Below the pieces are notes generated by a model. That model saw only the letters and a list, made by a program, of their open reading frames with translations, did not search any database and was not told the origin of the DNA. Positions 17,301 through 36,760 of a stretch of 41,371 nucleotides of DNA are shown here, in pieces (within the stretch, counting starts at the first letter, position 1; the number at the start of each line of letters is the position of its first letter). Origin of the DNA: Oscillospiraceae bacterium (GTDB lineage: Bacteria; Bacillota; Clostridia; Oscillospirales; Oscillospiraceae); contig JAFTGD010000001.1 in the NCBI GenBank assembly GCA_017458065.1, forward strand, positions 1 through 41,371, in the 5' to 3' direction. The translations under genes were made by a program, and so were the position numbers.

Positions 17301-17324
17301 TCGAGATTCCAGAGGTCACACCAT

Positions 17325-17927: not shown

Positions 17928-17942
17928 AAACAACCTACTATA

Positions 17943-18260: not shown

Positions 18261-18274
18261 ATATGGAGTAATGT

Positions 18275-18300
18275 GGGGAGCTTTTACGGCTCCCCTAAAA
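18275..18300 (+). terminator. Terminator of higA
   Basis: GGGGAGC (18275-18281) pairs with GCTCCCC (18289-18295) over a 7-base loop, 15 bp after the higA stop, followed by TAAAATAAT. Confidence 0.55.
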
Positions 18301-21971: not shown

Positions 21972-23245
21972 CGGAAGAAATCTCTTACCGCTTCCAGTGT
22001 TCTGTCCAGGTCTGCGTCGCAGTGGGCGCAAGACAGGAAGACTGCCTCAAACTGTGAGGGAGCCAGCAGGATGCCGCGGTCAATCATGTGTCGGAAGTAG
22101 GCTGTGTACCGGTCGGTATCGCTGGTCTGTGCGGAAGCATAGTCGCGCACGAGCTGCTCAGTAAAGAACAGACAACCGAGAGAACCCACGTGATTCACCT
22201 GGCAAGGAATTCGCTCCTGCTGGACAAGCTGCTTCAGTTCCCCAAAAAAGCTGTCCCCGGTTTTGTTGAGTTTTCCATAGAAATCCGGGCTGTCTTTCAG
22301 GATCCTCAGCTGGGCAAGTCCAGCTGCCATGGCAACAGGGTTGCCGCTAAGGGTGCCGGCCTGATAAACCGGCCCACAAGGAGCCACCCGTTCCATGATA
22401 TCGCGTCGGCCACCGTAGGCGCCGACAGGCATACCGCCTCCAATGATTTTGCCGAAGGTGCTCAAATCCGGGCACACATGATAATAGCCCTGTGCGCCGT
22501 CTGGGGCCAGACGGAACCCAGTGATCACCTCATCAAAAATGAGCAGGCTGCCGTGCCGGTCGCACACGGAGCGCAGGCTCTCCAGAAAGCCGTCTGCGGG
22601 CAGTACAACACCCATGTTGGCTCCGACAGGCTCCACGATGACGGCGGCAATCTCTCCGGGATTGGCCTCAAAGAGCGCCTCCACCGACTCCAGATCGTTG
22701 TACACGGCACAGAGCGTATCGCGCGAGCAGGCCTCCGGGACCCCGGCGCTGCCGGGGATGCCCTGGGTCATCAGTCCGGAGCCAGCTTTAACCAGCATTG
22801 CATCGCAGTGCCCGTGGTAGCAGCCGGAGAACTTGATGATCTTGTCTCTGCCGGTATAGCCCCTGGCAAGCCGGATGGCACTCATTACGGCCTCCGTCCC
22901 GGAATTGACCATACGGACCATCTCAATGGAAGGAACCATACTGCAGATCAGCTCCGCCATCTCGACTTCCCGCTCAGTGGCAGCTCCGAAGCTCAGACCG
23001 TCCGAGACAGCCTTCCCGACCGCCTCGATCACAGCCGGGTGGCTGTGTCCCAGAATCATGGGGCCCCAAGAGCAGATATAGTCGATGTATTCCCTGCCGT
23101 CGACGTCCCAGACGCGGTCTCCCAGGCCCTTACGGATAAAGCGGGGGGTCATGCCAACAGATCCAAAGGCTCGTACCGGGCTGTTCACGCCACCGGGGAT
23201 GCACTCCTTCGCACGATGAAACAGGTTCTCAGAAGATATCATCAT
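21968..23245 (-). CDS. hemL: Glutamate-1-semialdehyde 2,1-aminomutase
   Basis: This PLP enzyme converts glutamate-1-semialdehyde to 5-aminolevulinate. The 425-aa protein starts LFHRAKECIPGGVNSPVRAF and contains MVNSGTEAVMSAIRLARGYT, FSGCYHGHCDAMLVKAGSG, IFDEVITGFRLA and TFGKIIGGGMPVGAYGG, where the lysine binds PLP. The start overlaps the hemB stop by four bases and the stop overlaps hemC. In this operon it follows hemA functionally, giving the C5 route to aminolevulinate. Confidence 0.96.
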   Translation of the reverse strand: MMISSENLFHRAKECIPGGVNSPVRAFGSVGMTPRFIRKGLGDRVWDVDGREYIDYICSWGPMILGHSHPAVIEAVGKAVSDGLSFGAATEREVEMAELICSMVPSIEMVRMVNSGTEAVMSAIRLARGYTGRDKIIKFSGCYHGHCDAMLVKAGSGLMTQGIPGSAGVPEACSRDTLCAVYNDLESVEALFEANPGEIAAVIVEPVGANMGVVLPADGFLESLRSVCDRHGSLLIFDEVITGFRLAPDGAQGYYHVCPDLSTFGKIIGGGMPVGAYGGRRDIMERVAPCGPVYQAGTLSGNPVAMAAGLAQLRILKDSPDFYGKLNKTGDSFFGELKQLVQQERIPCQVNHVGSLGCLFFTEQLVRDYASAQTSDTDRYTAYFRHMIDRGILLAPSQFEAVFLSCAHCDADLDRTLEAVRDFFR

Positions 23246-24225
23246 CCGATTCTCCCTTCCCTCATGAATTGCGCCAGCTCCTTGGCATAGTAGCTCAGAT
23301 AGATGTCGGCGCCTGCGCGGTAGGCGGAGACCGCCATTTCACAGAAGATCTTTTCCTCATCGATCCAGCCCCGCTGTGCGGCGGCCTTTACCATGGCGTA
23401 CTCTCCGCTTACGCTGTACGTCGCCACTGGAACGTCGACGATCTCACGCACATCTCTTACCAAGTCGAGATAGGACATGGCGGGCTTGACCATCACGATA
23501 TCGGCGCCCTCTGCGACGTCAAGCAGGGCCTCCTTCCGGCCCTCCCTGCGGTTATGGAAATCCATCTGATAGCTCTTCCGATCGCCAAAGGAGGGCGCAG
23601 AGCCCGCAGCCTCCCGGAAGGGACCGTAAAAAGAGGATGCGTACTTGACTGCATAGGACATAATCGGAAGACTGGAAAAGCCATTTGAGTCCAGACATTC
23701 CCGGATTGCCCGGATGCGTCCGTCCATCATGTCGGAAGGGGCAACCATATCTGCTCCCGCCCGGGCATGGGACAGGGCAGTTTTCGCCAGCAGCTCCAGA
23801 GTCTGGTCGTTGTCGACATCATGGCCGTGTAGGACACCGCAGTGACCGTGGGAGGTATACTCGCACATACAGACGTCCGTGATCAGATACAGGTCCGGGA
23901 ACTGATTCTTCGCCATTCCGAGTGCACGCTGCACCACGCCGTCTTCCGCATATGCCTGGCTGCCCACGCTGTCCTTTTCGGCCGGAATCCCGAATAGCAT
24001 CACGTTGCTGACGCCGACGCGGCTCAGCCGCTCCAACTCCTCCGACATCCGATCCACCGTATAGCGGTACTGCCCGGGCAGGGACGGTATCTCTTCAACG
24101 AGGTTTGTTCCGTCCATCACGAACATGGGATAGATCAGCGACGCGGGATCCACCCGGGTTTCCCTTACCATCCTGCGGATAGATTCGCTGCCGCGCAGTC
24201 TTCTCGGTCTCTGTGTCAGATCCAT
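23242..24225 (-). CDS. hemB: Delta-aminolevulinic acid dehydratase (porphobilinogen synthase)
   Basis: AGAAGG precedes the ATG at 24225 (MDLTQRPRRLR); an ATG six codons upstream has no ribosome site. The enzyme condenses two aminolevulinates to porphobilinogen. DVCMCEYTSHGHCG is the zinc-binding cysteine loop. The two Schiff-base lysines lie in MSYAVKYASSFYGPFR and DIVMVKPAMSYLD. Length is 327 aa, normal for the family. The zinc-type cysteines are complete. Confidence 0.96.
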   Translation of the reverse strand: MDLTQRPRRLRGSESIRRMVRETRVDPASLIYPMFVMDGTNLVEEIPSLPGQYRYTVDRMSEELERLSRVGVSNVMLFGIPAEKDSVGSQAYAEDGVVQRALGMAKNQFPDLYLITDVCMCEYTSHGHCGVLHGHDVDNDQTLELLAKTALSHARAGADMVAPSDMMDGRIRAIRECLDSNGFSSLPIMSYAVKYASSFYGPFREAAGSAPSFGDRKSYQMDFHNRREGRKEALLDVAEGADIVMVKPAMSYLDLVRDVREIVDVPVATYSVSGEYAMVKAAAQRGWIDEEKIFCEMAVSAYRAGADIYLSYYAKELAQFMREGRIG

Positions 24226-24251
24226 TTCATTGCCTTCTTTCATCTGTATCG

Positions 24252-25481
24252 TTACTCGTCGAATGCTTTTTCCATTGCATCCAGACAGTCCCTGAATTCT
24301 CGATCGGTCAGTCTGTCACGCAGGCTGAACAGGAGATGATTCATCATCCGGGCGGCAGCGCCCTCAACTTCCTTGCGCAGGTCTGACTTTTCATCCTCAT
24401 GTAATGCGATGTAGCGGAAGAAAGGGTTCATACGGTCTCCCACATCCTTCCCGGTACGGGACTTGAGATCCTGAATTCGGGGAATGAATTCCCTGCAGTC
24501 ATACCAAGAGTTGAAACGTTCCTGCTCTTCCTGAAGTATTTCCTCCGCTCTGGCGAGATTGACACGAAGCTTCTCAGAATGCAGATCTATGTGAAAAGAG
24601 TCGATGTCGTACATGATGAACCCGTCCAGTGAAGCAATCTCCGGCTCCATATCACGGGGTACCGCGAGATCAATCATATAAACGGGATGATCGGGCTTCA
24701 TGCCGCACAGATCCTGATAGCGTAGTGTATAGTTCGGACTGCTGGTGGCACTGACCACAAAGTCGCAATCCGGCAGAACGGACAGTCGTTCGTCATAGTT
24801 GATGCGCCGGCAGCCGGGAGGAATGTCGACAATTCCGCTGCGGTACTGTCGGACGGTGACGGTCACCATCGCTCCGTGGTCCAGGAGAGCCTGAGCCGCC
24901 AGCCGGCCCATCATTCCATTTCCTATGACCAGGCAGCGGCTGTCGGTTACGGTAACACCCCCTTCCGCCAGCATCCTCAGGGCCGCGTGAATCACGGAAT
25001 GATCAGCTGTAGACAGGTTGGTCTCGGTCTTGATCCGTTTCCCGGCGGTCACGGCAAGACGGAACAGCACCTCCAGGCAATGGTCTGTGGCATAGCAGCT
25101 TCGGGCAAAGGCCAGCGCATCTCCAACCTGTGTAATGATCTGGTCCTCCCCTACGATTCTCGATTCCAGCCCGGCCGCAAGTCGAAACAGATGGTCAACG
25201 GCATCCTGTTCCTTCCGATCGACAAAAAAAGGGGCGTACTGAATCGGGTCTACGTGAAGGAACCCGCAGATAAGCGAAACCGGAGAAAGTTCCTCTTCCT
25301 CCGAGACGCTGAACCAAATCTCCATCCGGTTGCAGGTTGAGATGATCACGCAGCCTTCAACCGCAGGGAGTGCCAGGAAGTCCTTGTACGCCTGCTCCAT
25401 GAGCTTTTTAGTGAAGGAAAAAACGCTTCTGACGTCCAGACTTGCCAGGTTGTGATCAATGCCAGCCATCTGCACGGACAT
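24252..25481 (-). CDS. hemA: Glutamyl-tRNA reductase
   Basis: GGAGGAG sits five bases before ATG 25481; the longer frame to 25559 is rejected. The 409-aa enzyme reduces glutamyl-tRNA to glutamate-1-semialdehyde with NADPH, the committed step of the C5 pathway. VIISTCNRMEIW holds the catalytic cysteine. GLESRIVGEDQIITQV follows, then the NADPH site CLVIGNGMMGRLAAQALL and VSATSSPNYTL. It begins the second half of the operon, after a 185-bp gap that contains a structured leader. The C-terminal dimerisation domain is present. Confidence 0.95.
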   Translation of the reverse strand: MSVQMAGIDHNLASLDVRSVFSFTKKLMEQAYKDFLALPAVEGCVIISTCNRMEIWFSVSEEEELSPVSLICGFLHVDPIQYAPFFVDRKEQDAVDHLFRLAAGLESRIVGEDQIITQVGDALAFARSCYATDHCLEVLFRLAVTAGKRIKTETNLSTADHSVIHAALRMLAEGGVTVTDSRCLVIGNGMMGRLAAQALLDHGAMVTVTVRQYRSGIVDIPPGCRRINYDERLSVLPDCDFVVSATSSPNYTLRYQDLCGMKPDHPVYMIDLAVPRDMEPEIASLDGFIMYDIDSFHIDLHSEKLRVNLARAEEILQEEQERFNSWYDCREFIPRIQDLKSRTGKDVGDRMNPFFRYIALHEDEKSDLRKEVEGAAARMMNHLLFSLRDRLTDREFRDCLDAMEKAFDE

Positions 25482-25498
25482 AAAAACTCCTCCAGAAA

Positions 25499-25564
25499 CG
25501 GTAATGTCATATTGGAGAAACCATTGTCGCTGTCCAGATCCGGACGACTCTGTCGACATTACCG
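25499..25564 (-). promoter_or_regulatory. Structured leader upstream of hemA
   Basis: On the minus strand CGGTAATGTC (25564-25555) and GACATTACCG (25508-25499) form a perfect 10-bp stem. It encloses a second stem, GTCGTCC...GGAC(AG)CGAC (25548-25526). The structure ends about 18 bases before the hemA start and just before GGAGGAG. It does not match the cobalamin or other riboswitches I know. It may control hemA translation or separate expression of the two operon halves. Confidence 0.55.
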
Positions 25565-25666
25565 GGGATAGAAAAGCTGTGGGGACAGCACCGAGTGCAG
25601 TCTCCGTAAGCGGTTTTACACAGCAAATTGCGTTTCACTTTACAAAAAAGGGTTTTCTGTCTCCGT

Positions 25667-26065
25667 CTATGCCTCCGGATCCAGCACCTGTTCCATCCTT
25701 TTGAGACAGAGTGTTCCGATCGCGGCACAGACCTCGGGAGATTCCAGCAGGCCATGACCGAGCATTTCCGAATGGATGCCGGCTGCAGTGAAAGCGCGGC
25801 GCAAGGCGGCCCCTTCCGCCGCAATGTCACGGGCAACATGTGAAGCGGGTGACAGAAACAGCGGAAACAGAAAGATGTGGGAAATCTGTTTCTTGCAAAG
25901 AATCGGTAGTAGGGATTGAACGGAGGGTTCTCCGTAGAGCATTACGAGATAGGTCTCCGGGAAGGACTTGCGAAGCCCGTCCCGAAAACGGATATATGAC
26001 TGGTCCTCAAAACCGGTGGAACCGTGCCCGACCAGAACGAGCGCGGTATTAACGGTGGAGTTTAT
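25667..26065 (-). CDS. CbiX/SirB-type sirohydrochlorin chelatase, apparent ATA start
   Basis: The coding frame runs from codon ATA (26065-26063) and gives 132 aa, the normal length of a short CbiX/SirB chelatase. It starts NSTVNTALVLVGHGSTGFED, with the metal-binding VGHGS histidine. HIFLFPLFLSPASHVARDIA carries the second conserved region, and EMLGHGLLESPEV the third. It should insert Fe(II) into sirohydrochlorin to give siroheme, the substrate of AhbAB. The ATA overlaps the ahbB stop (GAATAA), just where ATG would overlap TGA. The first ATG in frame (25942) would delete the catalytic VGHGS, so ATA initiation or a damaged start codon is likely. Confidence 0.8.
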   Translation of the reverse strand: MNSTVNTALVLVGHGSTGFEDQSYIRFRDGLRKSFPETYLVMLYGEPSVQSLLPILCKKQISHIFLFPLFLSPASHVARDIAAEGAALRRAFTAAGIHSEMLGHGLLESPEVCAAIGTLCLKRMEQVLDPEA

Positions 26066-26559
26066 TCTAGGTCACCACTTTCCTCTGTGAAATACTTCAT
26101 TCCTGTTTTTTTTAGTTCACGAAGCGACCGGAGACTTGCGTATCTGATCGGACGGATGCGGCGTTCCATCTCCTCCAGCAGCTTTAGAAAACGAGCCTCT
26201 GAGCGTTCATGCACCATGGTATAGAGGTTGTAATCAAATTCAGGCCTGCGGCTGCGGACGTAACAGTGCGTAACCTGAGGAAACTCCGTGACCGCGGCTG
26301 CTGCTTCGGAAACGCGATCCTCAGGAACGTCCCAGACCAGCATGGAATTGATGGTGTAACCGACGCTGCGGTGATACAGCGCAGCCGCAATCCGTTTGAG
26401 CCGGCCCTGCCGCTGAAGCTCCCTTGTCATCTCCAGTACCTGTTCCCCACTCACGCCGAGGGCGTCGCCAAGAACATCAAAGGGCCTCTCACAGAGAGGA
26501 AACTCCTCCTGTAGCAAGCGGATCAAAGCAATCTGACTGTCTGTCAGTGGCGGATTCAT
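26062..26559 (-). CDS. ahbB: Siroheme decarboxylase subunit, AhbB-like
   Basis: This 165-aa Lrp/AsnC-type protein has an N-terminal helix-turn-helix (LTDSQIALIRLLQEEFPL, then ALGVSGEQVLEMTRELQRQG) and the AhbA/B ferredoxin-like domain. The hallmark is RIAAALYHRSVGYTINSMLV, which carries the conserved siroheme-contacting RH/YHR region, followed by WDVPEDRV and VTHCYVRSRRPEFDYNLYTM. It ends LRELKKTGMKYF, typical of AhbB. AhbA and AhbB remove two acetate carboxyls of siroheme to give didecarboxysiroheme. Start and stop overlap the neighbouring genes. Confidence 0.92.
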   Translation of the reverse strand: MNPPLTDSQIALIRLLQEEFPLCERPFDVLGDALGVSGEQVLEMTRELQRQGRLKRIAAALYHRSVGYTINSMLVWDVPEDRVSEAAAAVTEFPQVTHCYVRSRRPEFDYNLYTMVHERSEARFLKLLEEMERRIRPIRYASLRSLRELKKTGMKYFTEESGDLE

Positions 26560-27029
26560 GGTCTTTCCTCTCTCACGTCAAACGCGGCATGGATTTTGAA
26601 CTGCCGTAAGCGTTCAAAACGGTAGACCCGATCCGTCAAGCCGCTGGATTCCAGTTGACCGATCACCCGGTCAAGATCCTCCTGCCTGCGGCAGGAGAGT
26701 GTAAACCACATATTAAGCGTATGATCCCGCAGATAGTTGTGCGTGATCCCGGGAATCGTGCTGATCAGGTTCGCCATCTCCTCGACATGCTCTTCCGGAA
26801 CGCGCATGGCACAGAGGAGAGAATGATACCCGAGCGAGGCGGCATGAAAAAAGCCGGAAAAGCGACGGATCCAGCCGTCTTCCATGAGCCGGGTGATGCG
26901 TGCGATCACCTCCTGGGCGGACAGTCCGCCCAGTCGCTCACCCAGGTCCCGATAAGGCTCCTCCGTAAGAGGAATCCCCTCCTGGAGCAGATTCAGGAGG
27001 GCCCGATCTGTATTGTCCACTTCTCTCAT
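26556..27029 (-). CDS. ahbA: Siroheme decarboxylase subunit, AhbA-like
   Basis: The ATG at 27029 gives 157 aa. The protein is a paralogue of its neighbour: NTDRALLNLLQEGIPLTEEP is the helix-turn-helix start, IRRFSGFFHAASLGYHSLLC holds the conserved FFxxxxLGY siroheme region, and ITHNYLRDHTLNMWFTLSC follows. It ends RQFKIHAAFDV. The ribosome site is poor (GAGTAGG touching the ATG); GTG at 27020 is an alternative. It works as a heterodimer with AhbB. The gene is 11 bp after ahbC and overlaps ahbB by four bases. Confidence 0.92.
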   Translation of the reverse strand: MREVDNTDRALLNLLQEGIPLTEEPYRDLGERLGGLSAQEVIARITRLMEDGWIRRFSGFFHAASLGYHSLLCAMRVPEEHVEEMANLISTIPGITHNYLRDHTLNMWFTLSCRRQEDLDRVIGQLESSGLTDRVYRFERLRQFKIHAAFDVREERP

Positions 27030-27040
27030 CCTACTCGGAA

Positions 27041-28231
27041 TCAGAGCTGTACCGGGACGGGGAGTCTGCGCTCCTCTTCGGTCAGGTAGCAAGCGGGGTC
27101 GAAGCCCCAGAAATCGCCGCTTACTGCTTCCGCGCGGGAACGGAAATTACCGTTACAGACAGAGAGCCAGCTGCAATTGCGACAGGTCTCTGGCAGAAGA
27201 GACTGCCGGTCCTTCAGGCCTGCGAGAAGCGGAATGCTTCTGTCGGTCCAGATCTCGCTGAAGGGGCGCTCACGCACATTGCCCAGTGTATGCTGCTGGG
27301 TGAACTGATCCGGATGAACATTGCCTTCGGCATCGATGTTGGCAAAAGCCATCCCGGAGCGGTTTCCTCCGTTGCGGCGGAGCAGACGGTAGATGGCGGC
27401 GCAACGCTCGGGATCGGACTCACGAATTTTCAGACAGAGATAGGGGCCGTCCGCATGGTTGTCCACCATGAGGACCTCCTTTTTCAGACCGCGTCGGTGA
27501 AAATCCAGCGTGCGGTCGATAATCAGGTCCAGGACGTCACGGGTCTGCTGAGGGCTGAGATCCTCCTTTTGCATGGTGCTGCCGCGGCCGGAATAGACCA
27601 GATGATAAAAGCAGATGCGGTCCACATCCTCCCGCTCCAGAATATCAAGGATTCCCGGGACATCGTCAACGTTGTTCCGGTTGAGGGTGAAGCGGAAGCC
27701 GACTCGCTGCCCGATACGGCGGCAGTTGCGCACCCCGTTGAGTGCACGCTCATATGCTCCCGGCATTCCGCGGAAGCGATCGTTCGTCTCCGGCATCCCG
27801 TCCAAGCTGATGCCGACGTAGCTGATCCCGAGTGAGCGGATACACTCCGCGAGTTCCGGGGTGATCAGCGTTCCGTTTGTCGAAAGCGTCACGCGGATAC
27901 CGCGTTTGATTGCATGTCCCGCTAGAACAGGAAAATCCTCCCGGCAGAGCGGCTCCCCGCCGCTGAAGAGCAGCGCAGGCACGTGGAAATCCGCCAGATC
28001 ATCAATCAGGCGAAGAGCTTCTTCGGTGTTCAGTTCATTCTCATAAAGCCGGTTTTCCGAGCGGGAATAGCAGTGCCGGCAGTGAAGATTGCATGTGCGG
28101 GTATAATTCCATGCTACGACGGGGCCGCGGCCTTCCGCCACCCCGTCGGTCTGGGAGAAGGCGTTTACGGTGTACCGCAGCTCATCGCCGGAATAGTTGT
28201 CGCCGATCAGCATCTTGGTCAGACTGAGCAT
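27041..28231 (-). CDS. ahbC: Radical SAM enzyme AhbC (didecarboxysiroheme to Fe-coproporphyrin III)
   Basis: AGGAGG is eight bases before the start. The 396-aa protein has VVAWNYTRTCNLHCRHCYSR, with the iron-sulfur cysteines at residues 47, 51 and 54, then ALLFSGGEPLCRED and STNGTLITPELAE. Its C-terminal SPASM-like cluster region reads ETCRNCSWLSVCNGNFRSRA and later FDPACYLTEEE. This matches AhbC/NirJ proteins. AhbC removes two acetate side chains as methyl-forming cleavages to give iron-coproporphyrin III. It lies between ahbD and ahbA. Confidence 0.9.
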   Translation of the reverse strand: MLSLTKMLIGDNYSGDELRYTVNAFSQTDGVAEGRGPVVAWNYTRTCNLHCRHCYSRSENRLYENELNTEEALRLIDDLADFHVPALLFSGGEPLCREDFPVLAGHAIKRGIRVTLSTNGTLITPELAECIRSLGISYVGISLDGMPETNDRFRGMPGAYERALNGVRNCRRIGQRVGFRFTLNRNNVDDVPGILDILEREDVDRICFYHLVYSGRGSTMQKEDLSPQQTRDVLDLIIDRTLDFHRRGLKKEVLMVDNHADGPYLCLKIRESDPERCAAIYRLLRRNGGNRSGMAFANIDAEGNVHPDQFTQQHTLGNVRERPFSEIWTDRSIPLLAGLKDRQSLLPETCRNCSWLSVCNGNFRSRAEAVSGDFWGFDPACYLTEEERRLPVPVQL

Positions 28232-28234
28232 GCT

Positions 28235-29239
28235 TTATGCCTCCTGCATCTGAAGTCCATAGGCACAGTAGCTGTCTGCAGCCATATAGTCTCCGTTATG
28301 ATAATAAGCCGCGCGCGCACGGCAGCCGCCGCAGATGTCCTGATAGCCGCAGGCGCTGCAGTAGCCTCCGTAGTTGCGGGTGCGCAAAGAAGCAAAGAGT
28401 TCACTGTTTTTCCAGATTTCGTCGAAGGGCTTCTCCCGGATGCTGCCGGCCTCTTCGGTCATGTACGCGCAAGGACGGACCATGCCGACTGGACTGACAA
28501 TGCAGTAAGTGAGTCCGGCAAGACAACCCCTGGTAAAGCGCCGGTCGAGCGTGACGCCGAGCTGCTTAGCTACTCGCGTGAACTGAGGCGCACAGGTCGG
28601 CTTGATTGGGATAGGGATCTCTTTCTGCTTCATCATGATCCGCTGCAGCAGCTCCTCGTATGCCTGAACCTCAAGAGCAGAATCCTCAATAAACACTCCG
28701 CGGCCGACCGGGATCAGGAAGAACAGGTAAGCAGCCATGGCGCCCTTCTCTACGGCAAAATCAATCACGTCGCAGATCTCATCCCGGTTCCAGTCCATGA
28801 CGGTGGTGTGCAGCTGGAAAGGAAGCCCGGCCTCTCGGCAGTTCTCCATCCCCTGCAGTGTGCGGTCGAAAGCGGTTTCATCACCCCGGAAGGCGTTATG
28901 CTTGTCACGATCCAGACTGTCCAAACTGATGCCCATGGCCGCAGCTCCGCTCGCCTTCAGCGCGCGGACTATCTCTGGCGTAAGCAACGTGCCGTTGGTC
29001 CCGAAGACAGGCCGCAACCCTTTTGAGGAAGCATAGGAGACCAGCTCCAGAATATCCGGCCGAAGCAGTGCCTCGCCGCCGCTGAAGATCATAATCCGGA
29101 AGCCTGCCCTGGCAATCCCGTCAATCAACTCCCGCGCTTCAGCGGTCGTCAGCTCTTCGGCACGGCTCTCTCCAGCATTCTGGTAACAGTGTTTACAGTG
29201 GAGATTGCATTTGTTTGTTGTCATCCAGGAAACGATCAT
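28235..29239 (-). CDS. ahbD: Radical SAM heme synthase AhbD
   Basis: The first gene of the heme operon encodes 334 aa. SWMTTNKCNLHCKHCYQNAG holds the radical SAM cysteines at residues 11, 15 and 18. IMIFSGGEALLRPD and FGTNGTLLTPE follow. The auxiliary cluster region is YCSACGYQDICGGCRARAAY, then DSYCAYG. AhbD decarboxylates the two propionates of iron-coproporphyrin III to vinyls, giving protoheme. AAGGAG is 14 bases before the ATG. Its gene order just before ahbC supports AhbD over related peptide-modifying SPASM enzymes. Confidence 0.88.
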   Translation of the reverse strand: MIVSWMTTNKCNLHCKHCYQNAGESRAEELTTAEARELIDGIARAGFRIMIFSGGEALLRPDILELVSYASSKGLRPVFGTNGTLLTPEIVRALKASGAAAMGISLDSLDRDKHNAFRGDETAFDRTLQGMENCREAGLPFQLHTTVMDWNRDEICDVIDFAVEKGAMAAYLFFLIPVGRGVFIEDSALEVQAYEELLQRIMMKQKEIPIPIKPTCAPQFTRVAKQLGVTLDRRFTRGCLAGLTYCIVSPVGMVRPCAYMTEEAGSIREKPFDEIWKNSELFASLRTRNYGGYCSACGYQDICGGCRARAAYYHNGDYMAADSYCAYGLQMQEA

Positions 29240-29718
29240 TTTTAGTCAAACGCTCCTTCTATATGCACTGACCCGGAATCCAGTCCGGAAGCTTCTAGTC
29301 TGAATACCCGTTCCTGCTTGAAATACAAAAGCCTCAAAGCCGGGACAGGCTTGCTGTTTATTGAAACAAAAGCTAAAAAACAATATTAATTCTGATTACT
29401 CATAAGAGCATGCGGGCTTTTGCGTCAAAACTTGATCCAAGCTGGAAAATAACTGGTATTTAATCAAAATTATGGCCGAAACCCCCCAAAACATCATCAA
29501 TTTGTTGAAACAAATTTTAACATACTGCATTCACGCTTTCAAGTGCATTCCCAAAAAATCATCGATTTTGTTCATCGAGTTAAAATATGCTACAGAAGTC
29601 GTCTGCAGATTTCAGATTGAATCGGCATTTTTTGTCATCTTTACAAACGTTTTTCTTGACAGGTAGAAAAGCAATATTCTATAATTTTTCCAGTGCATGA
29701 TGAAAGGGGCGATGAATC
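29240..29718. promoter_or_regulatory. Divergent regulatory region between heme operon and radical SAM operon
   Basis: No gene is seen in these 479 AT-rich bases. On the plus strand TTGACA (29656-29661) and TATAAT (29680-29685) are 18 bp apart and end 33 bp before the Tat-protein gene, a near-perfect promoter. AATTTGTT-GA-AACAAATT (29499-29516) is a perfect 8-bp palindrome. The half TTGAAACAAA recurs at 29361-29370, nearer the heme operon, so a shared regulator may bind here. A possible minus-strand promoter for ahbD lies near 29410-29435 (TTGACG) but is weak. Confidence 0.6.
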
Positions 29719-30198
29719 ATGGGCGAAATCTCACGCAGGACTTTTCTGAAGGGCAGCGCGGCGCTTGCCGGTACGACGTTGCTTGCGTCGCTCGGTCTGA
29801 ATGCCTCCGCAGAAGTGGCACAGTCTGACGAAGAAAAGGTCGTCAGCGCAAAGACCGGAACGTCTCCTGTTTCCGATCAGAACACAGAAGGCCGCAATGT
29901 GGAAGAACAGACAGCGGAGCGGAAATTTGAGCTCATCATCAGTGATGAGATCGCAGAACTTATGGAAGAGCGCGGGATACGGGAAGAGGACGTCCGTGAA
30001 GTTGTTGAATTTGCTGAGTCCAGCGGGAAAAAGCTCTATATCGAAGGAGAAGAGCACTTTCTGGCTCGGAAACGTATCGGCAGTTTTACGGCATATGCGG
30101 AGTACACGGTCAGTGGGAACGACGTAGAGGTGCTAGATGTTTACAGTCACATGATCGTCTTTCCAGGCGACGTGCTTGAGGATCAGGGAGAATCATAA
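29719..30198 (+). CDS. Tat-exported small protein of the radical SAM operon
   Basis: The 159-aa protein begins with a twin-arginine signal, ISRRTFLKGSAALAGTTLLA, with a predicted cleavage after ASA near residue 31. A low-complexity linker (about 32-65) follows. A small folded domain comes next: FELIISDEIAELMEERGIRE, DVREVVEFAESSGKKLYIEG, ARKRIGSFTAYAEYTVSGND and VLDVYSHMIVF. No cysteine is present in the mature part, so it is not itself an iron-sulfur protein. Tat export suggests it folds, or binds a cofactor or partner, in the cytoplasm first. It is the first gene of a coupled operon; its stop shares one base with the next start. The family is not known to me by function. Confidence 0.85.
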   Translation: MGEISRRTFLKGSAALAGTTLLASLGLNASAEVAQSDEEKVVSAKTGTSPVSDQNTEGRNVEEQTAERKFELIISDEIAELMEERGIREEDVREVVEFAESSGKKLYIEGEEHFLARKRIGSFTAYAEYTVSGNDVEVLDVYSHMIVFPGDVLEDQGES

Positions 30199-30398
30199 TG
30201 GGTAAGCCAAGTAAATGGAAATGCTACACCTGTAGGGTTGAAATGGAGAAGGTCCTCGACATCTCCGTGAAATTCCGCAAATTCAACCTGCCAAAAGCGG
30301 AAGGTCTGCGCTGTCCGCAATGCGGGGTGCAGTATCTGGAATCAGACTATGTAGCTGAGCAGGTCTCCCCTGCAGAAGAAATACTCTCCGGAAAATAA
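30198..30398 (+). CDS. Small two-CXXC redox or zinc-ribbon protein
   Basis: The 66-aa protein has WKCYTCRVEME at the N-terminus and LRCPQCGVQYLESDY near residue 45, that is, two CXXC pairs about 33 residues apart. This is the layout of a rubredoxin-like or zinc-ribbon fold. From memory it resembles the small redox protein (DVU_1557-like) that accompanies TrsS-type radical SAM genes in Desulfovibrio and other anaerobes. It is coupled to the Tat protein gene (TAATG) and ends four bases before the first radical SAM gene. It could supply electrons or a metal to the SAM enzymes. Confidence 0.75.
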   Translation: MGKPSKWKCYTCRVEMEKVLDISVKFRKFNLPKAEGLRCPQCGVQYLESDYVAEQVSPAEEILSGK

Positions 30399-30402
30399 GG
30401 CT

Positions 30403-31668
30403 ATGAATCTGATTTGTAAAACCCGTAGCGTCTGCCCGGTCTGTCTGAGGGAACTGCCCGCAGAACTCACAGAACATCCAGACGGGATTTACATGGAGAA
30501 AGTCTGTGCCGATCATGGTAGATTTGAAACGCTGATCTGGCAGGACGATGGGGCCGGCTTCCTGCAGTGGATGACCAGAGGAGGATGTCCGCCAGAAACA
30601 CTGCCCTTGACAGAGGAACAGCTGGAGGCTCAGCTGTCGGGAGCCGGGTTTACATGCGACGCCTGTCAGAGCCCCTCCTCCGCTGCGCTCATGACGACAA
30701 ACCGCTGCAATATGAACTGTCCGGTCTGCTTCACCAGAGACCGGCAGGAGGCGCTTCATGAGCCCTCTCTGGAGGAATGCGAGAGTCTTCTGCGAAACTA
30801 TCGGGAGCGAGCCGGAGATGACGCACTGCTGGAATTCTGTGGTGGGGAGCCCACCGTGCGGGAGGATCTCCCCGCCCTGGCTCAGCTTGCACGCAATATC
30901 GGATTTGACTACATCCAGCTCAATACAAACGGAATTCGTCTTTCTGAGAGCGTGTCCTACTGCAGCCAGCTCAGAGAAGCAGGTATAACCACCGTTTATC
31001 TGGGCTTCGACGGTGTGACGGACCATCCTTACCAGATAAAGTACGGACGCAGTCTGCTGGAGGAAAAGAAAAGGGCCGTGGACAACTGCGAAGCAGCGGG
31101 GCTCGCCGTCGTGCTGGTTGTCTGTGTGATCCCAGGAGAAAACGACGGAGAGCTTGGAGAGATCATCCGCTACGCCAAGGCTAATGTTCCGACAGTAAAG
31201 GGCGTCTATCTGCAGCCGATCAGTTATTTCGGCATCTATCCGGAAGACATCCGGAAAAGGATCACAATCCCGGAGCTGATCCGCAGGCTCGCAGATCAGT
31301 GCGGGGACATTTCCGAAGGAGACTTCGGGCCCTGCAGCTACGAACACCCCCAATGCAGCTTCAATGCCTGTTATCTGGTTGACCGTGAGGGCACTCTTTG
31401 GAGCTTGTCAGAGCCCTTCTCTTCCCGCTGTGTGGAAGGCCAGTGTGCCGGTCGTATCAGGAAAGTGCTCCGTAATACCTGGATGCCGAGCCGTACCAGG
31501 ATGCTAACGATTGGAGGAATGGCTTTCCAGGACGCCTGGAATATCGATCTGCTGCGCGTCAGGCGTTGCTCAATTCAGGTTATCCAGAAAGACGGCAGGC
31601 TGATTCCTCTGTGCAGTAAGTATCTCAGCAGTTGCGGAGGCGGGAAACTCTTTCCGGGAATAGGATAA
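30403..31668 (+). CDS. Radical SAM enzyme 1, Tes/TrsS-like architecture
   Basis: The 421-aa protein has an N-terminal CPVC module (VCPVCLRELPAEL, then EKVCADHGRF) as in MJ0619/Tes-type tetraether synthases and TrsS proteins. The radical SAM core follows: TTNRCNMNCPVCFT with cysteines 102, 106 and 109, FCGGEPTVREDLPALAQ, LNTNGIRLSES, and VYLGFDGVTDHPYQIKYGR. The C-terminus ends VRRCSIQVIQKDGRLIPLC. It is clearly a paralogue of the enzyme at 33020 but keeps fewer cysteines in the auxiliary segment (CDAC at 85-88). No in-frame TGA or selenocysteine is seen. Its substrate is unknown. The stop overlaps the CoA-ligase start. Confidence 0.85.
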   Translation: MNLICKTRSVCPVCLRELPAELTEHPDGIYMEKVCADHGRFETLIWQDDGAGFLQWMTRGGCPPETLPLTEEQLEAQLSGAGFTCDACQSPSSAALMTTNRCNMNCPVCFTRDRQEALHEPSLEECESLLRNYRERAGDDALLEFCGGEPTVREDLPALAQLARNIGFDYIQLNTNGIRLSESVSYCSQLREAGITTVYLGFDGVTDHPYQIKYGRSLLEEKKRAVDNCEAAGLAVVLVVCVIPGENDGELGEIIRYAKANVPTVKGVYLQPISYFGIYPEDIRKRITIPELIRRLADQCGDISEGDFGPCSYEHPQCSFNACYLVDREGTLWSLSEPFSSRCVEGQCAGRIRKVLRNTWMPSRTRMLTIGGMAFQDAWNIDLLRVRRCSIQVIQKDGRLIPLCSKYLSSCGGGKLFPGIG

Positions 31669-33023
31669 TGAGCCAGTCTCTTCAATGCGGGCTCTATAAG
31701 CTGTGCGAAAAACGAATCTCAGAGGAGCGAGAATTCCGGGCCGTAACCGATACCTGCGACGGTCCAGTAACCGATGAGCTTTTTGATGCATACCGGCTGT
31801 GGCAGCTGCAGAAGACTGTAAAGCTGGTCTGTGAAGAGAGCCCATTTTACCGCCGACTCTATCAAGCGGCAGGGGTTACTCCCGGGGATATACGCTGTCT
31901 GCAGGACCTGAAAAAGCTGCCCTTCACTACGTCTTCCGACCTTCAGAACAACCCGTACCGATTTTTGTGCACCTCTCAGAGTGAGATAGAAAAGCCGGTC
32001 ACTTTTTTCAGCTCGGGTTCTGTCGGCCAGAAAAAAAGAGTGTTTTTCAGCCGGTTGGACATTCAGAGGATCATGGATTTTCTCCCGTGTGGAATGCATA
32101 CGGTAATTGAACCCGGAGAGGGACGCGTTCAGGTCTTTCTGCAGAATTCCCAGGGTAGAGGAACCGGGGAGATCCTCGCCAGGAGCCTTCGACTGTACGG
32201 TATGCAGTCTTGGACTTCTGACCTGCAGGACAGCACAGAGGACATCTTTCGACTTGCCTCTGAAAACCAGGTAAACGTCTGGTTCGGAGATGCACTGACC
32301 ATTCTCCGGGCGAGCAGGATCCTTGCACAAGAGCATGATCTGCGCCGTTTTGGAATGCAGTGCATATTTCTCACAATGACGAATATTCCCGACAGTATGG
32401 TGCAGGATCTGACAGACATCTGGGGCTGCCGGGTCTCCACGCACTACGGTCTCACGGAAGCCGGCTGGGGGCTGGCCGTTGACTGTGAGGTCTGTAGGGG
32501 ATATCATTACAACGAACTGGATCATATCATCGAGATCGTCGACCCTGAAACCGGAGCACCGCTCCCATACGGTGCGACGGGTGAAGTGGTTCTGACGACG
32601 ATTGCAAGAGACTGCATGCCTTTGCTGCGGTATCGGACTGGCGACATTGCTTCCCTGTACCCTTGCCGTTGCGGAGGGCATCTGGATATTCTTGGGCATA
32701 TTGTGCGGAGAAAGGAAGGCGCCTGCCGGATCGCGGGAAGAGAGGTCTACCCTGCCCTGTTTGAAGAAATACTTTTCAAGGACCGGCAGATTTTGGACTA
32801 CCGTGCGTATACCGACGGAGAACAGCTCTACTTTGACGCAGAAGTCCTGAGTCCGTACTGTTTTGATGCCAGTGTATTGTCCGAACAGTTGGGGGAAATT
32901 CCGGGGTTGCAGGGAATGAAGTCACCTCAGATCCGCGTTCTTCCGGTCGGAGCTCTTCGTCCTTATGCATTTGAAAAAAAGCGGATTTTGCCCGTCTCCG
33001 AACGGGTGGGAGCAACAGTATGA
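31668..33023 (+). CDS. PaaK-like AMP-dependent CoA ligase
   Basis: The start at 31668 shares one base with the preceding stop (TAATG). The 451-aa protein has FFSSGSVGQKKRVFFS (the SSGTTGxPK-type phosphate loop), VSTHYGLTEAGWG (YGxTE), GATGEVVLTTI and LLRYRTGDIAS, and a C-terminal lid ending YAFEKKRIL. These are the ANL adenylating motifs with a phenylacetate-CoA-ligase-like arrangement. A cysteine-rich insertion YPCRCGGHLDILGH resembles the PaaK metal site. It should activate a carboxylic acid as adenylate or CoA thioester. It resembles the DVU_1553-type ligases found beside TrsS. It lies between the two radical SAM genes. Confidence 0.85.
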   Translation: MSQSLQCGLYKLCEKRISEEREFRAVTDTCDGPVTDELFDAYRLWQLQKTVKLVCEESPFYRRLYQAAGVTPGDIRCLQDLKKLPFTTSSDLQNNPYRFLCTSQSEIEKPVTFFSSGSVGQKKRVFFSRLDIQRIMDFLPCGMHTVIEPGEGRVQVFLQNSQGRGTGEILARSLRLYGMQSWTSDLQDSTEDIFRLASENQVNVWFGDALTILRASRILAQEHDLRRFGMQCIFLTMTNIPDSMVQDLTDIWGCRVSTHYGLTEAGWGLAVDCEVCRGYHYNELDHIIEIVDPETGAPLPYGATGEVVLTTIARDCMPLLRYRTGDIASLYPCRCGGHLDILGHIVRRKEGACRIAGREVYPALFEEILFKDRQILDYRAYTDGEQLYFDAEVLSPYCFDASVLSEQLGEIPGLQGMKSPQIRVLPVGALRPYAFEKKRILPVSERVGATV

Positions 33024-34354
33024 ACGGTGACATTCTCTATACAACAGACAGCCTTTGTCCGGTCTGCCTGAAAAGGATTCCGGCCAGATATCTCAGGAAA
33101 GACAGCAAAGTTTACTTCTACAAGGAATGCCCTGAACACGGTCCGTTCTCGGTATTTTTCTGGGATGATGCCGATCTGTACGAAGAGTGGCTTAAACAGA
33201 GCATCCGTGCGCCTGCTGTAAAAAACGGGAAACCGAAAAAGGACGGGTGTCCTTTTGACTGCGGTCTTTGCGAGGAACATCACAGCGGTACCTGCACCGT
33301 CATTCTGGAAATCACCTATCGCTGCAACATGGACTGCAGGATCTGCTTTGCCGATGCTAATAGGAACCGCTTTGATCCGGATTTGGACACCATCCGCCGG
33401 ATGTACGGAACTGCCCTCCGTGCAAATCGTTTCTGCAGTGTTCAGCTCAGTGGCGGAGAACCGACAGTCCGTGACGATTTGCCTGAAATCATACGTATGG
33501 GAAAAGAGCTCGGTGTCATCCATCTCCAGGTTAATACGAATGGATTGCGGATCGCACAGGACCTCCCCTATCTGCAGAAGCTGAAAGATGCAGGTGTCGA
33601 TCTGATCTACCTTCAGTTTGACGGCACCGACGACGAGATCTACCGCGCTATTCGCGGCAGAGAGATGATGGAGATCAAGAAGCAGGCTATAGCCAACTGT
33701 GAAGCGCTTGGGATCGGGGTTTTGCTGGTGCCGGTTGTTATACCGGAACTGAATCTCCATCGCCTTGGAGAGATTATTGCATTTGCAAAATCACATATTC
33801 CGACGGTCAAAGGAGTCCATTTTCAGCCGCTCAGCTTCTTTGGCCGCTATCCTGACCAGGCTCCTCCAGACGAATGCCGCTGCGGGCTTAGTGACGTCCT
33901 TCACGCGCTGGATGAGCAGTGCGGGGGTGAATTGAAGATGGAGCATTTCGTTCCCAGAAAGCAGTTCGATTCTCACTGCGACTTCAGCAGCAGCTATTAT
34001 CTTGACGAAGACGGGAAGCTGATCGCCATATCCGACAAGACGCAGAATTGTGATGATACCGAGAAGACCGACTTTGTTGCCAAGACCAACCGATATACTG
34101 ACAAGCGATGGCGCTTCCAGCCGGAGGGTTATTCTGACAAACCTTTGATTCGCTTTGCCATGCGGACAATGACACATTCCTTCAGCGTTTCCGGAAAAGG
34201 GTTTCAGGATGTGTGGAACATCGACCTGGGGCGGCTGCGCGGCTGCTGTGTCCACGCAGTCACCGATCGTGGGGAGCTGGTTCCATTCTGTGCGTTTCAC
34301 CTGACATCAGCCAACGGAAAAAGATTATATGAAAATGGTGAGGAAATACTATGA
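33020..34354 (+). CDS. Radical SAM enzyme 2, Tes/TrsS-like
   Basis: The 444-aa protein carries the complete Tes-like arrangement. The N-terminal module is LCPVCLKRIPARY and KECPEHGPF; the auxiliary segment is GCPFDCGLCEEH (cysteines 77, 81, 84). The radical core is TYRCNMDCRICFADA (cysteines 102, 106, 109), then LSGGEPTVRDDLPEIIRM, VNTNGLRIAQDL, LIYLQFDGTDDEIYRAIRGR and VKGVHFQPLSFFGRYP. The C-terminus has LRGCCVHAVTDRGELVPFC. Tes enzymes join unactivated carbons of lipids; TrsS has no proven role that I know. Start and stop overlap both neighbours by four bases (ATGA), giving tight coupling. Confidence 0.87.
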   Translation: MNGDILYTTDSLCPVCLKRIPARYLRKDSKVYFYKECPEHGPFSVFFWDDADLYEEWLKQSIRAPAVKNGKPKKDGCPFDCGLCEEHHSGTCTVILEITYRCNMDCRICFADANRNRFDPDLDTIRRMYGTALRANRFCSVQLSGGEPTVRDDLPEIIRMGKELGVIHLQVNTNGLRIAQDLPYLQKLKDAGVDLIYLQFDGTDDEIYRAIRGREMMEIKKQAIANCEALGIGVLLVPVVIPELNLHRLGEIIAFAKSHIPTVKGVHFQPLSFFGRYPDQAPPDECRCGLSDVLHALDEQCGGELKMEHFVPRKQFDSHCDFSSSYYLDEDGKLIAISDKTQNCDDTEKTDFVAKTNRYTDKRWRFQPEGYSDKPLIRFAMRTMTHSFSVSGKGFQDVWNIDLGRLRGCCVHAVTDRGELVPFCAFHLTSANGKRLYENGEEIL

Positions 34355-34548
34355 TACAGATTCCGATCAGGAAGGACACCACACTGGAAGATGCAGTCGA
34401 GAGAGCGCCGGAGACCATGTCTGTTTTCCGTTTGCTCGGGATATGCTGCATCAACGACCGCAACCGGAATATGACCATAGAGGAACTCTGTCGGTCCTGT
34501 AATATTGAGCCGGACTCTTTCCTGGCAGCACTGAACAAAATAATCTGA
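34351..34548 (+). CDS. ScdA_N/DUF542-like small protein
   Basis: The 65-aa protein reads DTTLEDAVERAPETMSVFRL, LGICCINDRNRNMTIEELCR and SCNIEPDSFLAALNKII. This is the single-domain pattern of ScdA_N (DUF542), normally found at the N-terminus of RIC/ScdA iron-sulfur repair proteins and as a separate domain in anaerobes (TLxE.V...P....VF..LGIDYCCG). Here the metal-site dyad is shifted to ICCIN. It overlaps the preceding stop and is the last visible gene of the operon. The IS1182-like end begins two bases after its stop, so genes that once followed may have been lost. Confidence 0.75.
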   Translation: MIQIPIRKDTTLEDAVERAPETMSVFRLLGICCINDRNRNMTIEELCRSCNIEPDSFLAALNKII

Positions 34549-34549
34549 A

Positions 34550-35579
34550 GGCGTTGTCTCAAAATAGCAATTAAGGCTATTGAGAGGCAACGCCTCTTTC
34601 GTTTGACCAGGAATGTTGAAAATTACGGTCAGATCAAGCGATGAGATGTCAAAATGCGGAAAACCATCCAAGGAGTACTGCAAAACAGCAGTGCTCCCGG
34701 ATGGTTTTCCTGTGTTGAGTTTTTAGGAAAAGCTACAGTCCGGCCGGAAACCCCTTTGGAACTACGAGACCTGTTCCCAAGCGACCATTTTGGTTTTTAT
34801 GATGCAGCTTGAGCATGTTGTAGGCCAGACTCAGCAATGTCCATTCCACTTCAACTTTAACGGTGCTGCGGAGAAGGAAGCGACGAAATCCCATGTCTTC
34901 TTTGACCATAGCGAAGACGCCCTCGGCCTGGATGCTGCGGTTCACACGGATCAGCTTTCCTTCGTTTGTGTTGATCTGTTCTTCCATCGCGTCTCTTTGC
35001 CTGGCAAAGCGCTTGGAGACGTATATAACCTTGTTTCTATCCTCCAACGGTTTCTTGCTTCCACAGGCGCGGATGCACTTTTCCTTCATTGGGCAGCCCG
35101 CACAGTCTTTGCAGCTGTAGACGGACGTTTCCATCTTAAAGCCATTTTGAGAAGTGGTTTTCTTAATGCCGTCAAAGGTGATCGCCTTTCCGTTTGCACA
35201 GGTATATGTGTCTGTCTCTGCATTGTATGCCATGTTTTCCCGGCGGCTGATGTCTGTACGGTACTTTTTTGTCTTCCTTTGTTCGTGATTGGAAGGCTTT
35301 ACAAACAGAGCAATATCCTTTAATTCCTCAAAGTAGCAGTAGTTTTCTTCGCTCTCATAGCCAGAGTCCGCACAAATCTGCTTTATCTCGTACTGCTTCA
35401 AGTACTCTGTAAACGGGATCAACGTATGTACGTCATTCCGGTCAGCGCTGATGTAATTGCCGATGATGAACTCTTCCGAGGTCGCCACATTCACATTGTA
35501 ACCGGGCTTGAGCTGGCCGTTGCGCATATGGTCTTCCTTCATATGCATGAACGTAGCGTCATGATCCGTTTTGCAATAA
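34550..35579 (-). mobile_element. IS1182-like insertion sequence, 5'-truncated, inverted
   Basis: The 3' terminal repeat GGCGTTGTCTCAAAA lies at 34550-34564. The element reads on the minus strand and retains its downstream hairpin (about 34635-34715) and the transposase C-terminus. Similarity to the copy at 15215 stops at about 35579 (TTATTGC), where a dynamin-like gene begins. It is related to but not identical with the first element. Confidence 0.85.
34733..35579 (-). pseudogene. IS1182-family transposase, C-terminal part
   Basis: The frame holds YCKTDHDATFMHMKEDHMRN, ADSGYESEENYCYFEELKD, the cysteine cluster CKDCAGCPMKEKCIRACGSK, and the end LGTGLVVPKGFPAGL. The N-terminal domain and the first catalytic Asp are missing. 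Residues differ from the other copy throughout (for example EIKQICADSG instead of PIKRVCVDAG), so the two were acquired separately or diverged long ago. Confidence 0.85.
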
Positions 35580-36760
35580 GGCAAGACGAGATAATTGAAC
35601 AGACTGAAGCGGAGTTAAAAGCATTTTTAGGAAATAATTATAAGGGAAGTATTTCTATAAACGGTCTGTTGAGCTTTTGTGGGTTGGCAGTCGACAACAA
35701 TGGGAATACAACCATTGTCGATGAAAAAGATAAGAGCTTACGTGTTGACCAACAGAAATACTTAAAAGAGTATTCTTACGAAGCACGAGATCTTGTAAGA
35801 GATGGCCACATAGCAATTGTACAAGACACGATTTCCGCAAAAGTTAATAATGTGGAGTCATATATATATGAGGAAAATATCAAAAAACTTCGAAGCCGCC
35901 TTCAGAAGATGCAGACCAAAGTCGACAAACTGAACGCAGCAGAGTCTTCAAAAATAAGGGGTTTCATTCAAGTCTATAACGAGTTTGAATCAAACTGTTA
36001 TAACGCTAAAGAGGATTTTATTCAAGCAATCAGACATGTAGGATACAATGCGGCATCCGATGCTTTCCTAGATATAAAATCAGAATTGTTCTATATGGTC
36101 GAAACGGAAAAAGGAAAGACGAAGACATCAGATATCCAAGGGTATTTTGATGCACATAAGGACCGAATTATCCGAAGTATCCAAGAAAGAATAAACAAAA
36201 AGATGGCTCAGGCGGAACAAGATTACGCTGAAGCTATAAAAGATGCACAGGAACGATTAGTTAAAGACTTCAAGAGAGAACAAACAGTATTTGAAATATC
36301 TTTATCTTCAGAAAACCTTTCGTTGGATGATATTCTTGGGAATGCGTTAAAGTATTCTTGGAAATCGTTCGGTAATGATGCATTTCGGGTTGGAAGTTTA
36401 GCTTTAAGCGGTGCAGGTATAGGTTCATTAGTTGCTCTTGGTATAGGTACAATTATTGGAGCTGCGATTGGCGCATTAGTTGGAATACTTAGCAGTATAT
36501 GGAACTTCTTCGCAACAGAGAATTCAAGAGTAAACACAGCAAAAGAAAAAATCGAGAGAGCAATTAATGAACAGATTGATGTTGTCTCTGATGATATCAA
36601 ATCCGAAATAGATAAACTCGATTTTGAGCAACGTATAAACGCAAGTTATGACCAGATTTATGAGCAAGCTGAAAAGCAAAAAAATGCATTAACACAGATA
36701 GAAAGAGTACTTAGTGTTGTATCAAGCGAATTGGGAAGAAAGAGTCGTAAGGTTTCATAA
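35580..36760 (+). pseudogene. Dynamin-like (LeoA-type) protein, C-terminal part
   Basis: The coding text begins QDEIIEQTEAELKAFLGNNY directly after the IS remnant and runs to TAA at 36758-36760 (about 393 aa). It contains long charged coiled coils (EENIKKLRSRLQKMQTKVDK, AQAEQDYAEAIKDAQERLVK). A glycine-rich hydrophobic paddle, GSLALSGAGIGSLVALGIG and TIIGAAIGALVGILSSIW, lies near the end. This matches the trunk and membrane-insertion paddle of bacterial dynamin-like proteins, some of which are phage defence or vesicle-related. The N-terminal GTPase is missing, cut by the IS. The identification rests on architecture rather than a catalytic motif. Confidence 0.5.

Follow-up and report, generated by a model that had tools for sequence, protein, structure and literature searches.

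A six-gene operon of an Oscillospiraceae bacterium resembles a compact Trs gene set with two radical SAM proteins and a Tat-tagged partner domain

The stretch of DNA analysed here (the window: 41,371 nucleotides of an Oscillospiraceae bacterium, contig JAFTGD010000001.1 of assembly GCA_017458065.1) carries an operon of six genes at positions 29719..34548, all confirmed as open reading frames (ORFs) on the + strand. In order, they encode a protein with a twin-arginine translocation (Tat) signal, a zinc-ribbon protein, a first radical S-adenosylmethionine (SAM) protein (rSAM1), an AMP-dependent ligase, a second radical SAM protein (rSAM2) and a DUF1858-type protein. The Tat gene overlaps the zinc ribbon gene by 1 nt, as does rSAM1 the ligase gene; the overlaps of the ligase gene with rSAM2 and of rSAM2 with the DUF1858 gene are 4 nt each, and a gap of 4 nt separates the zinc ribbon gene from rSAM1. 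The start of the ligase was corrected, ATG 31668 being preferred over TTG 31632. A promoter-like site, TTGACA-18-TATAAT (29656..29685, + strand), lies 33 nt upstream of the first ATG; it is a 12/12 match to the sigma-70-type consensus only, from a scan that returned 7 promoter-like sites in the scanned region against a shuffle mean of 3.8 and gave the 12/12 matches no control of their own. The sister genome of Oscillospiraceae bacterium isolate RUI069 (locus L095) holds the same six genes in identical order, with 80–94% protein identity, and the ratios of nonsynonymous to synonymous substitution (dN/dS) between the two are, in gene order, 0.148, 0.091, 0.095, 0.160, 0.070 and 0.242; purifying selection thus acts on all six. 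These junctions, together with the order kept in L095, bear out the preliminary description of the genes as tightly coupled and belonging together.

The first gene (29719..30198, +) encodes 159 residues comprising an SRRTFLK signal, a linker and, at about residues 60–146, a domain that we call tatdom. The signal reaches 19.6 bits with TIGR01409 (cut-off 16.7) and also passes PF10518; judged by eye, cleavage is likely after ASA at residue 31. With a signal above cut-off and a TatC gene in the genome, the protein qualifies as a predicted Tat substrate. Residues 58–146 match the C-terminus (667–755 of 759) of NF045663 with an E-value of 6.9e-18. As this model describes the dicluster oxidoreductase of Trs loci, of which tatdom is the C-terminal domain, the mature domain of the Tat protein is, by profile, a Trs component, a point that the preliminary description had missed. 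In an alignment of 53 tatdom rows, His144 (window numbering) is invariant (53/53) and I33, D37, T70, Y75, Y88 and R91 (alignment numbering) are at least 90% conserved. An assignment to DUF4258 was rejected, as matches are weak and confined to 9 of the 53 members (best E-value 0.00035), the window member scoring 17.3 of the 25 bits needed.

The 66-residue zinc-ribbon/redox protein (30198..30398, +) belongs to DUF7479 (DVU_1557-like; PF24292, 34.7 bits, cut-off 27) and fails the narrower DVU_1557 model NF045645 (23.4 bits, cut-off 60). The PaaK-like AMP-dependent ligase (31668..33023, +) is placed in the DVU_1553 family by NF045666 (328.3 bits, cut-off 300), its nearest solved sequence being phenylacetate-CoA ligase 4r1l (1.9e-33). 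The last gene (34351..34548, +) encodes 65 residues with a CC motif. It had been described as ScdA_N-like; since it fails the ScdA_N cut-off (18.8 bits, cut-off 32.5) and passes, marginally, that of DUF1858 (PF08984, 32.5 bits, cut-off 32.2), the latter name is preferred. The gene has the equal position in L095, and a relative (34%) lies 3' of rSAM2 in genome G493.

Both radical SAM proteins are relatives of TrsS and of tetraether synthase (Tes), as had been proposed. With the TrsS model NF045646 (cut-off 490), rSAM2 (33020..34354, +) scores 534.6 bits and rSAM1 (30403..31668, +) 389.2 bits, below the cut-off, so that it is termed TrsS-like. Alignment confirmed in both the N-terminal CPxC and the CX3CX2C motif at residues 102/106/109, and both retain, relative to Tes, the rubredoxin site CxxC-X20-CxxH, CX3CX2C and the three cysteines of the C-terminal cluster. 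The best solved relative of both is GDGT-MAS (7tol/7tom; 302.9 and 260.8 bits), and both fail the Tes model NF045702 (cut-off 450), with 299.9 bits for rSAM1 and 345.8 bits for rSAM2. Excerpts of PMC9433317 describe a Tes mechanism that runs via an S–C intermediate, a Tyr459 completely conserved in archaeal homologues, and Tes variants at Y459, as well as Met439Ala, that stay active; Tes chain numbers equal the numbers of that paper plus 20, as inferred from the rubredoxin cysteines. The window's rSAM1 keeps the rubredoxin CxxC/CxxH, the CX3CX2C of the radical SAM (RS) cluster, the three C-terminal cysteines and the methionine and has lost the N-terminal [4Fe-4S] ligands, whereas rSAM2 keeps Cys/His ligands at all four Tes-type metal sites and carries Lys at the Met439 equivalent, as in L095. 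Among related loci, the N-terminal cluster ligands are kept in 11/11 rSAM2 rows versus 2/13 rSAM1 rows, and the labile-Met position holds Met in 13/13 rSAM1, 9/11 rSAM2 and 103/111 TrsS rows. At the Tyr459 position all 24 twin rows have V, I or A (V and A in the window pair), and the interval between the first cysteine of the C-cluster and the Met position measures 52–55 residues in rSAM1 and 70–87 in rSAM2 against 101 in Tes, this last value being counted from the alignments. A further site, five residues before the first C-cluster Cys, commonly but not universally carries Cys or Sec, Cys standing there in 60 of 111 other TrsS rows. Among the twins, rSAM1 has Tyr in 11 rows and Cys in 2, and rSAM2 has Arg in 7 and Gln in 4; the window proteins have Tyr and Gln. 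Different sites have thus changed in the two proteins, suggesting that they divide the work between them.

A tree of 135 rows from 138, built by a quick method with five long branches flagged, recovers rSAM1 (13 rows) and rSAM2 (11 rows) each as a clade with support 100; ORFs under 330 residues, including the interrupted TrsS of L136 and those of L090 and L121, had been excluded before. The two clades group, with weak support (81), with L113 (Dehalococcoidia) and L154 (Acidobacteria), while 99 further TrsS rows make up a clade (support 98) that includes none of them. L113 contains tatdom, DUF7479, TrsM, TrsS, ligase and a dicluster-like protein, with no molybdenum aldehyde oxidoreductase (AOR) in 21 kb; L154 contains Tat-tatdom, DUF7479, TrsS and ligase.

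Taken together, these profile matches make the operon a variant of the Trs set, which NCBIfam represents by models for TrsS (NF045646), the DVU_1553 ligase (NF045666), DVU_1557 (NF045645), the DVU_1556 methyltransferase (NF045667) and the dicluster protein (NF045663). Genome contigs were scanned with rSAM1, and the best 80 of 157 relatives comprised 11 twin loci (rSAM1 orthologues) and 69 stretches with a single TrsS. Each ORF took its label from its best BLAST match among single reference proteins; the labels AOR, dicluster protein, TrsS, ligase, DUF7479, TrsM-like, dihydrolipoyl dehydrogenase (DLD; TIGR01350), activase and double-cubane-like have a profile or database basis, and the labels CGCAxxG, XdhC, MoeA, nucleoside triphosphate (NTP) transferase, phosphatase and CobW-like were assigned manually. 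Neighbour counts are lower bounds, as stretches end at contig ends. The 69 single-TrsS stretches contain AOR (52), dicluster protein (57), tatdom (58), DUF7479 (57), ligase (63), TrsM (56) and CGCAxxG (58), and Trs sets are spread over many phyla. Reference locus L040 encodes an AOR of the 1sij/1vlb family (1467 bits over residues 1–904), whose crystal cofactor we take to be ordinary molybdopterin cytosine dinucleotide (MCD); the idea that Trs visibly modifies AOR was set aside on this account. In the archaeal locus L123, a URO-D gene (Pfam) lies upstream of tatdom-TrsS. The window genome has a usual Trs set as well, with AOR, dicluster protein, DUF7479, CGCAxxG and ligase on contig C63, which also encodes a TrsM-like methyltransferase (C63:48322-48864; 121 bits, under the cut-off of 155). 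A third TrsS, on contig C30, adjoins a CobW-like protein; in three loci of the window's family (L039, L193, L194), TrsS likewise adjoins a gene named by eye as a CobW-like GTPase, and these stretches gave no AOR hit.

Thirteen twin stretches were compared, namely the window, that of G493 (L175) and L095–L105. rSAM1 is present in all of them and rSAM2 in 11, the contigs of L096 and L103 ending in or just after the ligase. The window, L095, L097 and L175 have the order rSAM1-ligase-rSAM2, L098–L102 and L104 have rSAM2-rSAM1-ligase, and L105 shows rSAM2-rSAM1 before its contig ends. Neither AOR nor dicluster protein occurs in any of the 13, the window operon included; this absence of the usual partner AOR from the twin subtype had escaped the preliminary description. 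The six twin stretches that show tatdom (window, L095, L099, L101, L104, L175) all have it standing alone before DUF7479. DLD occurs in 8 of the 13 (50–74% to the L101 reference, L101 itself counted), and a double-cubane-like subunit pair in four (L097, L101, L103, L104), with weak or partial HGD-D-like ORFs in four more: L175 (25%, 48 bits, without an NCBIfam match), L099 (28%), L105 (29%) and L102 (an edge fragment). Neither DLD nor such double-cubane/HGD-D-like parts are seen in the 69 single-TrsS stretches, in the window or in L095. The fullest example, L101 of Schaedlerella arabinosiphila (G868), reads activase, two double-cubane-like subunits, tatdom, DUF7479, TrsM-like (105.4 bits of 155), DLD, DUF5714-type (MbdU-like), HGD-D-like, rSAM2, rSAM1, ligase, a second DUF5714-type and a lipoate-protein-ligase-like protein (277.3 bits of 280), the two scored proteins lying below cut-off. 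A DUF5714 protein of L104 (13078-14136) has a lipoyl-like C-terminal domain seemingly without the attachment lysine (by eye). A lipoyl-like product was rejected: the lipoate-protein-ligase-like gene was seen only near L100–L102 and the degenerate lipoyl-like tail only at L104, and a conserved Lys is missing from tatdom. The twin variant is rare, since a search of 294 other genomes of the order gave no ligase relative at E 1e-60 and rSAM1 has one other match above 50% in 300 family genomes (59%, G493), the remainder being at or below 47%. The gene set thus does recur elsewhere, so that its confinement to this one neighbourhood is ruled out, and neither radical SAM protein falls in an unrelated, well-characterised family, no characterised TrsS having been found.

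A Tat-tagged tatdom upstream of TrsS and ligase was also found in L121, L136 and L154. Among 297 genomes of the phylum Acidobacteria, to which the genome of L136 (G967) belongs, nine are tatdom-positive, and all nine have a standalone frame of 144–165 codons, with a fused copy elsewhere in five; three of the nine stretches are the loci already found as L121, L136 and L154. An SRRxF motif is present on tatdom in 9/9, followed by DUF7479 (9/9), TrsS (9/9) and ligase (7/9), the two without ligase being L265, at a contig end, and L266. This agrees with the earlier proposal that the Tat protein may be the exported product or target of the operon, which is plausible given that tatdom accompanies TrsS in other phyla. 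Six of the nine TrsS genes (L261, L263, L264, L265, L268, L269) have an in-frame TGA in the context GUExxHCSFSALSVLR, adjoining the same HC motif and falling at the position that holds Cys in the 60 TrsS rows mentioned above; it most likely encodes selenocysteine. L268 has a weak, divergent AOR-like hit upstream (32%, 62 bits), and weak methyltransferase hits occur in three of the nine stretches. Downstream of the Tat-tatdom operon of L136, aldehyde:ferredoxin-oxidoreductase-like and URO-D-like ORFs (by eye) lie at 14690-18296. In the window's phylum, tatdom is present in 26 of 398 genomes and in every one of the 18 genomes, out of 299 searched, whose TrsS match reaches 469 bits; five genomes with weaker TrsS-like matches are not among the tatdom-positives of the 398-genome sample, which may not have contained all five. 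Of seven twin-set genomes, three gave a TatC, namely those of the window (G000), L095 (G865) and Cuneatibacter (G869), and the search of G493, G866, G867 and G868 gave none; the Tat tag is present on tatdom in G000 and G865 only (G866 being judged from a 93-codon frame). Loss of the tag along with TatC, or independent gains, would both fit this pattern, Cuneatibacter having TatC without the tag.

Since tatdom occurs fused to a redox enzyme, free, and Tat-tagged in three subtypes, the simplest reading would be that this domain accepts or carries whatever TrsS and the ligase produce. Trs would then most likely make or install something on tatdom, the loaded domain presumably being exported in the present case. 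The sequence itself shows Trs membership, the co-occurrence of tatdom with TrsS, the Tat tag, the TatC gene and the kept cluster ligands. In the proposed scheme the PaaK-like ligase would adenylate a carboxylic acid precursor, electrons would come from the zinc-ribbon protein, with the DUF1858 protein as a possible second donor, and rSAM1 and rSAM2 would abstract hydrogen atoms, with the C-terminal [4Fe-4S] cluster holding the substrate radical as a C–S bond in the manner of tetraether synthase, before the two enzymes form a C–C or C–S bond. Tatdom would bind the product, or have it attached, close to the invariant His144, and the folded, loaded domain would leave by the Tat route, which would be used because, once loaded, the domain would have to be folded before export. 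As usual Trs loci fuse tatdom to the dicluster oxidoreductase that accompanies AOR, a redox cofactor or carrier would be the expected cargo. For Clostridium ljungdahlii, an excerpt of PMC5640608 proposes a membrane-bound carrier as the partner served by the CCG pair of the dicluster protein, in keeping with a product of the carrier type. We tentatively favour, as a possibility falling somewhat short of even odds, that the operon is an AOR-free, twin radical SAM variant of Trs whose acceptor domain is tagged for export. The wider proposal is more doubtful: that tatdom is a new carrier domain, on or for which Trs builds a novel redox cofactor by radical chemistry of the tetraether-synthase type, a cofactor serving AOR systems when the domain is fused and other reductases when it is free, and exported with the folded domain in some Oscillospiraceae and Acidobacteriota.

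Several points weigh against this interpretation. The window operon lacks TrsM, which Trs sets usually include. In the 53-row alignment, tatdom has no conserved Cys or Lys, the His being its sole invariant residue, and it has no solved relative by sequence, no PDB sequence falling below E 0.37. L266 shows no ligase in 12 kb. The tag is absent from the other twin sets, including that of Cuneatibacter despite its TatC. The genomes without a TatC hit are partly incomplete (G493, 85%). Finally, G207 is tatdom-positive without a TrsS at E 1e-60, the sole such genome among those in both samples.

Among the alternatives, the operon could be an accessory to the AOR-linked Trs set of the same genome, supplying the same product; the sets on C63 and C30 are in keeping with this, as is the dicluster protein found in six of seven twin genomes checked. 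The exception, Schaedlerella arabinosiphila, has a twin set and no dicluster match over cut-off, so twin sets can occur where the AOR-type set is missing, and with AOR in none of the 13 twin stretches and both proteins outside the large TrsS clade we consider the accessory role unlikely. That the module matures a double-cubane or 2-hydroxyacyl-CoA-dehydratase-like reductase is suggested by the subunit pairs and HGD-D-like ORFs described above, which single-TrsS stretches do not show, and by eight HGD-D matches on other contigs of the window genome; we nevertheless regard it as improbable, since no such gene lies in the window stretch or the nine acidobacterial ones, the tested subunit reaches 173.8 bits against the NF040772 cut-off of 350, and the Tat tag would be left unexplained. 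Coupling or modification of lipid chains by the twins, with the ligase supplying activated fatty acids and the Tat protein acting on the outer face, would suit GDGT-MAS as best solved relative and the methionine kept in rSAM1 and most TrsS rows. The cluster cysteines are indeed kept, but the missed Tes cut-off, the replaced Tyr459 (despite the active Y459 variants reported in the excerpted PMC9433317), the shorter C-terminal stretch and the company that TrsS keeps with soluble redox enzymes make lipid coupling, the fatty-chain role first suggested for the operon included, very doubtful. Least probable is a catabolic pathway that would import a carboxylic acid, activate it with CoA and act on it by radical chemistry. 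The resemblance of the ligase to phenylacetate-CoA ligase would suit it, as would the major facilitator superfamily (MFS) transporters close to the L097 and L104 twin sets and, at L104, genes for alcohol dehydrogenase, aldehyde dehydrogenase, phosphotransacylase and an acetokinase-family protein. Such genes were looked at in these two loci only, however, and none lies in the window operon, and the constant partner tatdom, for which no enzymatic relative was found, would go unexplained.

Divergent from the Trs operon, a siroheme-route heme operon occupies 21968-29239 on the - strand (AhbA, AhbB, NirJ1-like and NirJ2 by profile; hem genes by eye). Cofactor supply from it had been suggested; in a search of 129 loci (E ≤ 1e-20, at least 35% identity), heme-gene hits were found only at the window and L095, which alone has the equal arrangement, so the heme link is not conserved. 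Two transposase ORFs some 18 kb apart enclose the heme genes together with the Trs operon: one at 15571-16560 (+), 84% identical over 281 residues to the other, of DDE type (Pfam), at 34733-35584 (-) in the opposite orientation.

No study of Trs function was found in the open-licence literature, subscription journals lying outside its scope. The Trs naming was found only in NCBIfam and in one review table, which associates TrsS with 'radical SAM' and 'selenoprotein' (PMC13188914). As for the six DVU gene names, DVU1558 alone is mentioned, once (PMC3114432), and other searches yielded no more than names and lists of genes; a table row excerpted from PMC10920352 gives DVU_1559 as an aldehyde oxidoreductase under ethanol metabolism. 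The present operon reduces the Trs set to few genes, without the large enzymes and with the constant partner domain export-tagged. From so small an operon tatdom could therefore be purified and weighed, and what TrsS makes, and on what, would thus become directly testable.

Several known systems invite comparison. The AOR sets of C. ljungdahlii (PMC5640608, in excerpt) likewise bring together an MCD-type AOR, a fused disulfide oxidoreductase/CCG protein, a four-Cys protein and a C_GCAxxG_C_C protein; the term 'radical SAM' is absent from the main text of the paper, and its excerpts mention no exported form. GDGT-MAS/Tes (7tol, 7tom) shares with the twins the N-terminal rubredoxin site, the RS cluster and the C-terminal cluster cysteines, and with rSAM1 the Met position, whereas the twins lack Tyr459 and have a shorter C-terminal region, rSAM1 lacks the N-terminal cluster ligands and the window's rSAM2 has Lys for Met439. 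LipS1/LipS2, which we take to be a two-protein lipoyl synthase from a different radical SAM family, would be a precedent for two such proteins per product; unlike in that system, tatdom has no conserved Lys. With the Trs set of NCBIfam the operon has in common a TrsS-type radical SAM protein, a DVU_1553-type ligase, a DUF7479 protein and tatdom; it differs in lacking AOR, the dicluster body, the CGCAxxG protein and TrsM, in having two diverged radical SAM proteins, in its standalone, Tat-tagged tatdom and in the added DUF1858 protein. Finally, the four-gene acidobacterial operon found here (Tat-tatdom, DUF7479, TrsS, ligase) differs from that of the window by its one TrsS, with the in-frame TGA at the Cys position in 6/9 and no second radical SAM protein seen, and shares with it the initial genes, their order and the export tag.

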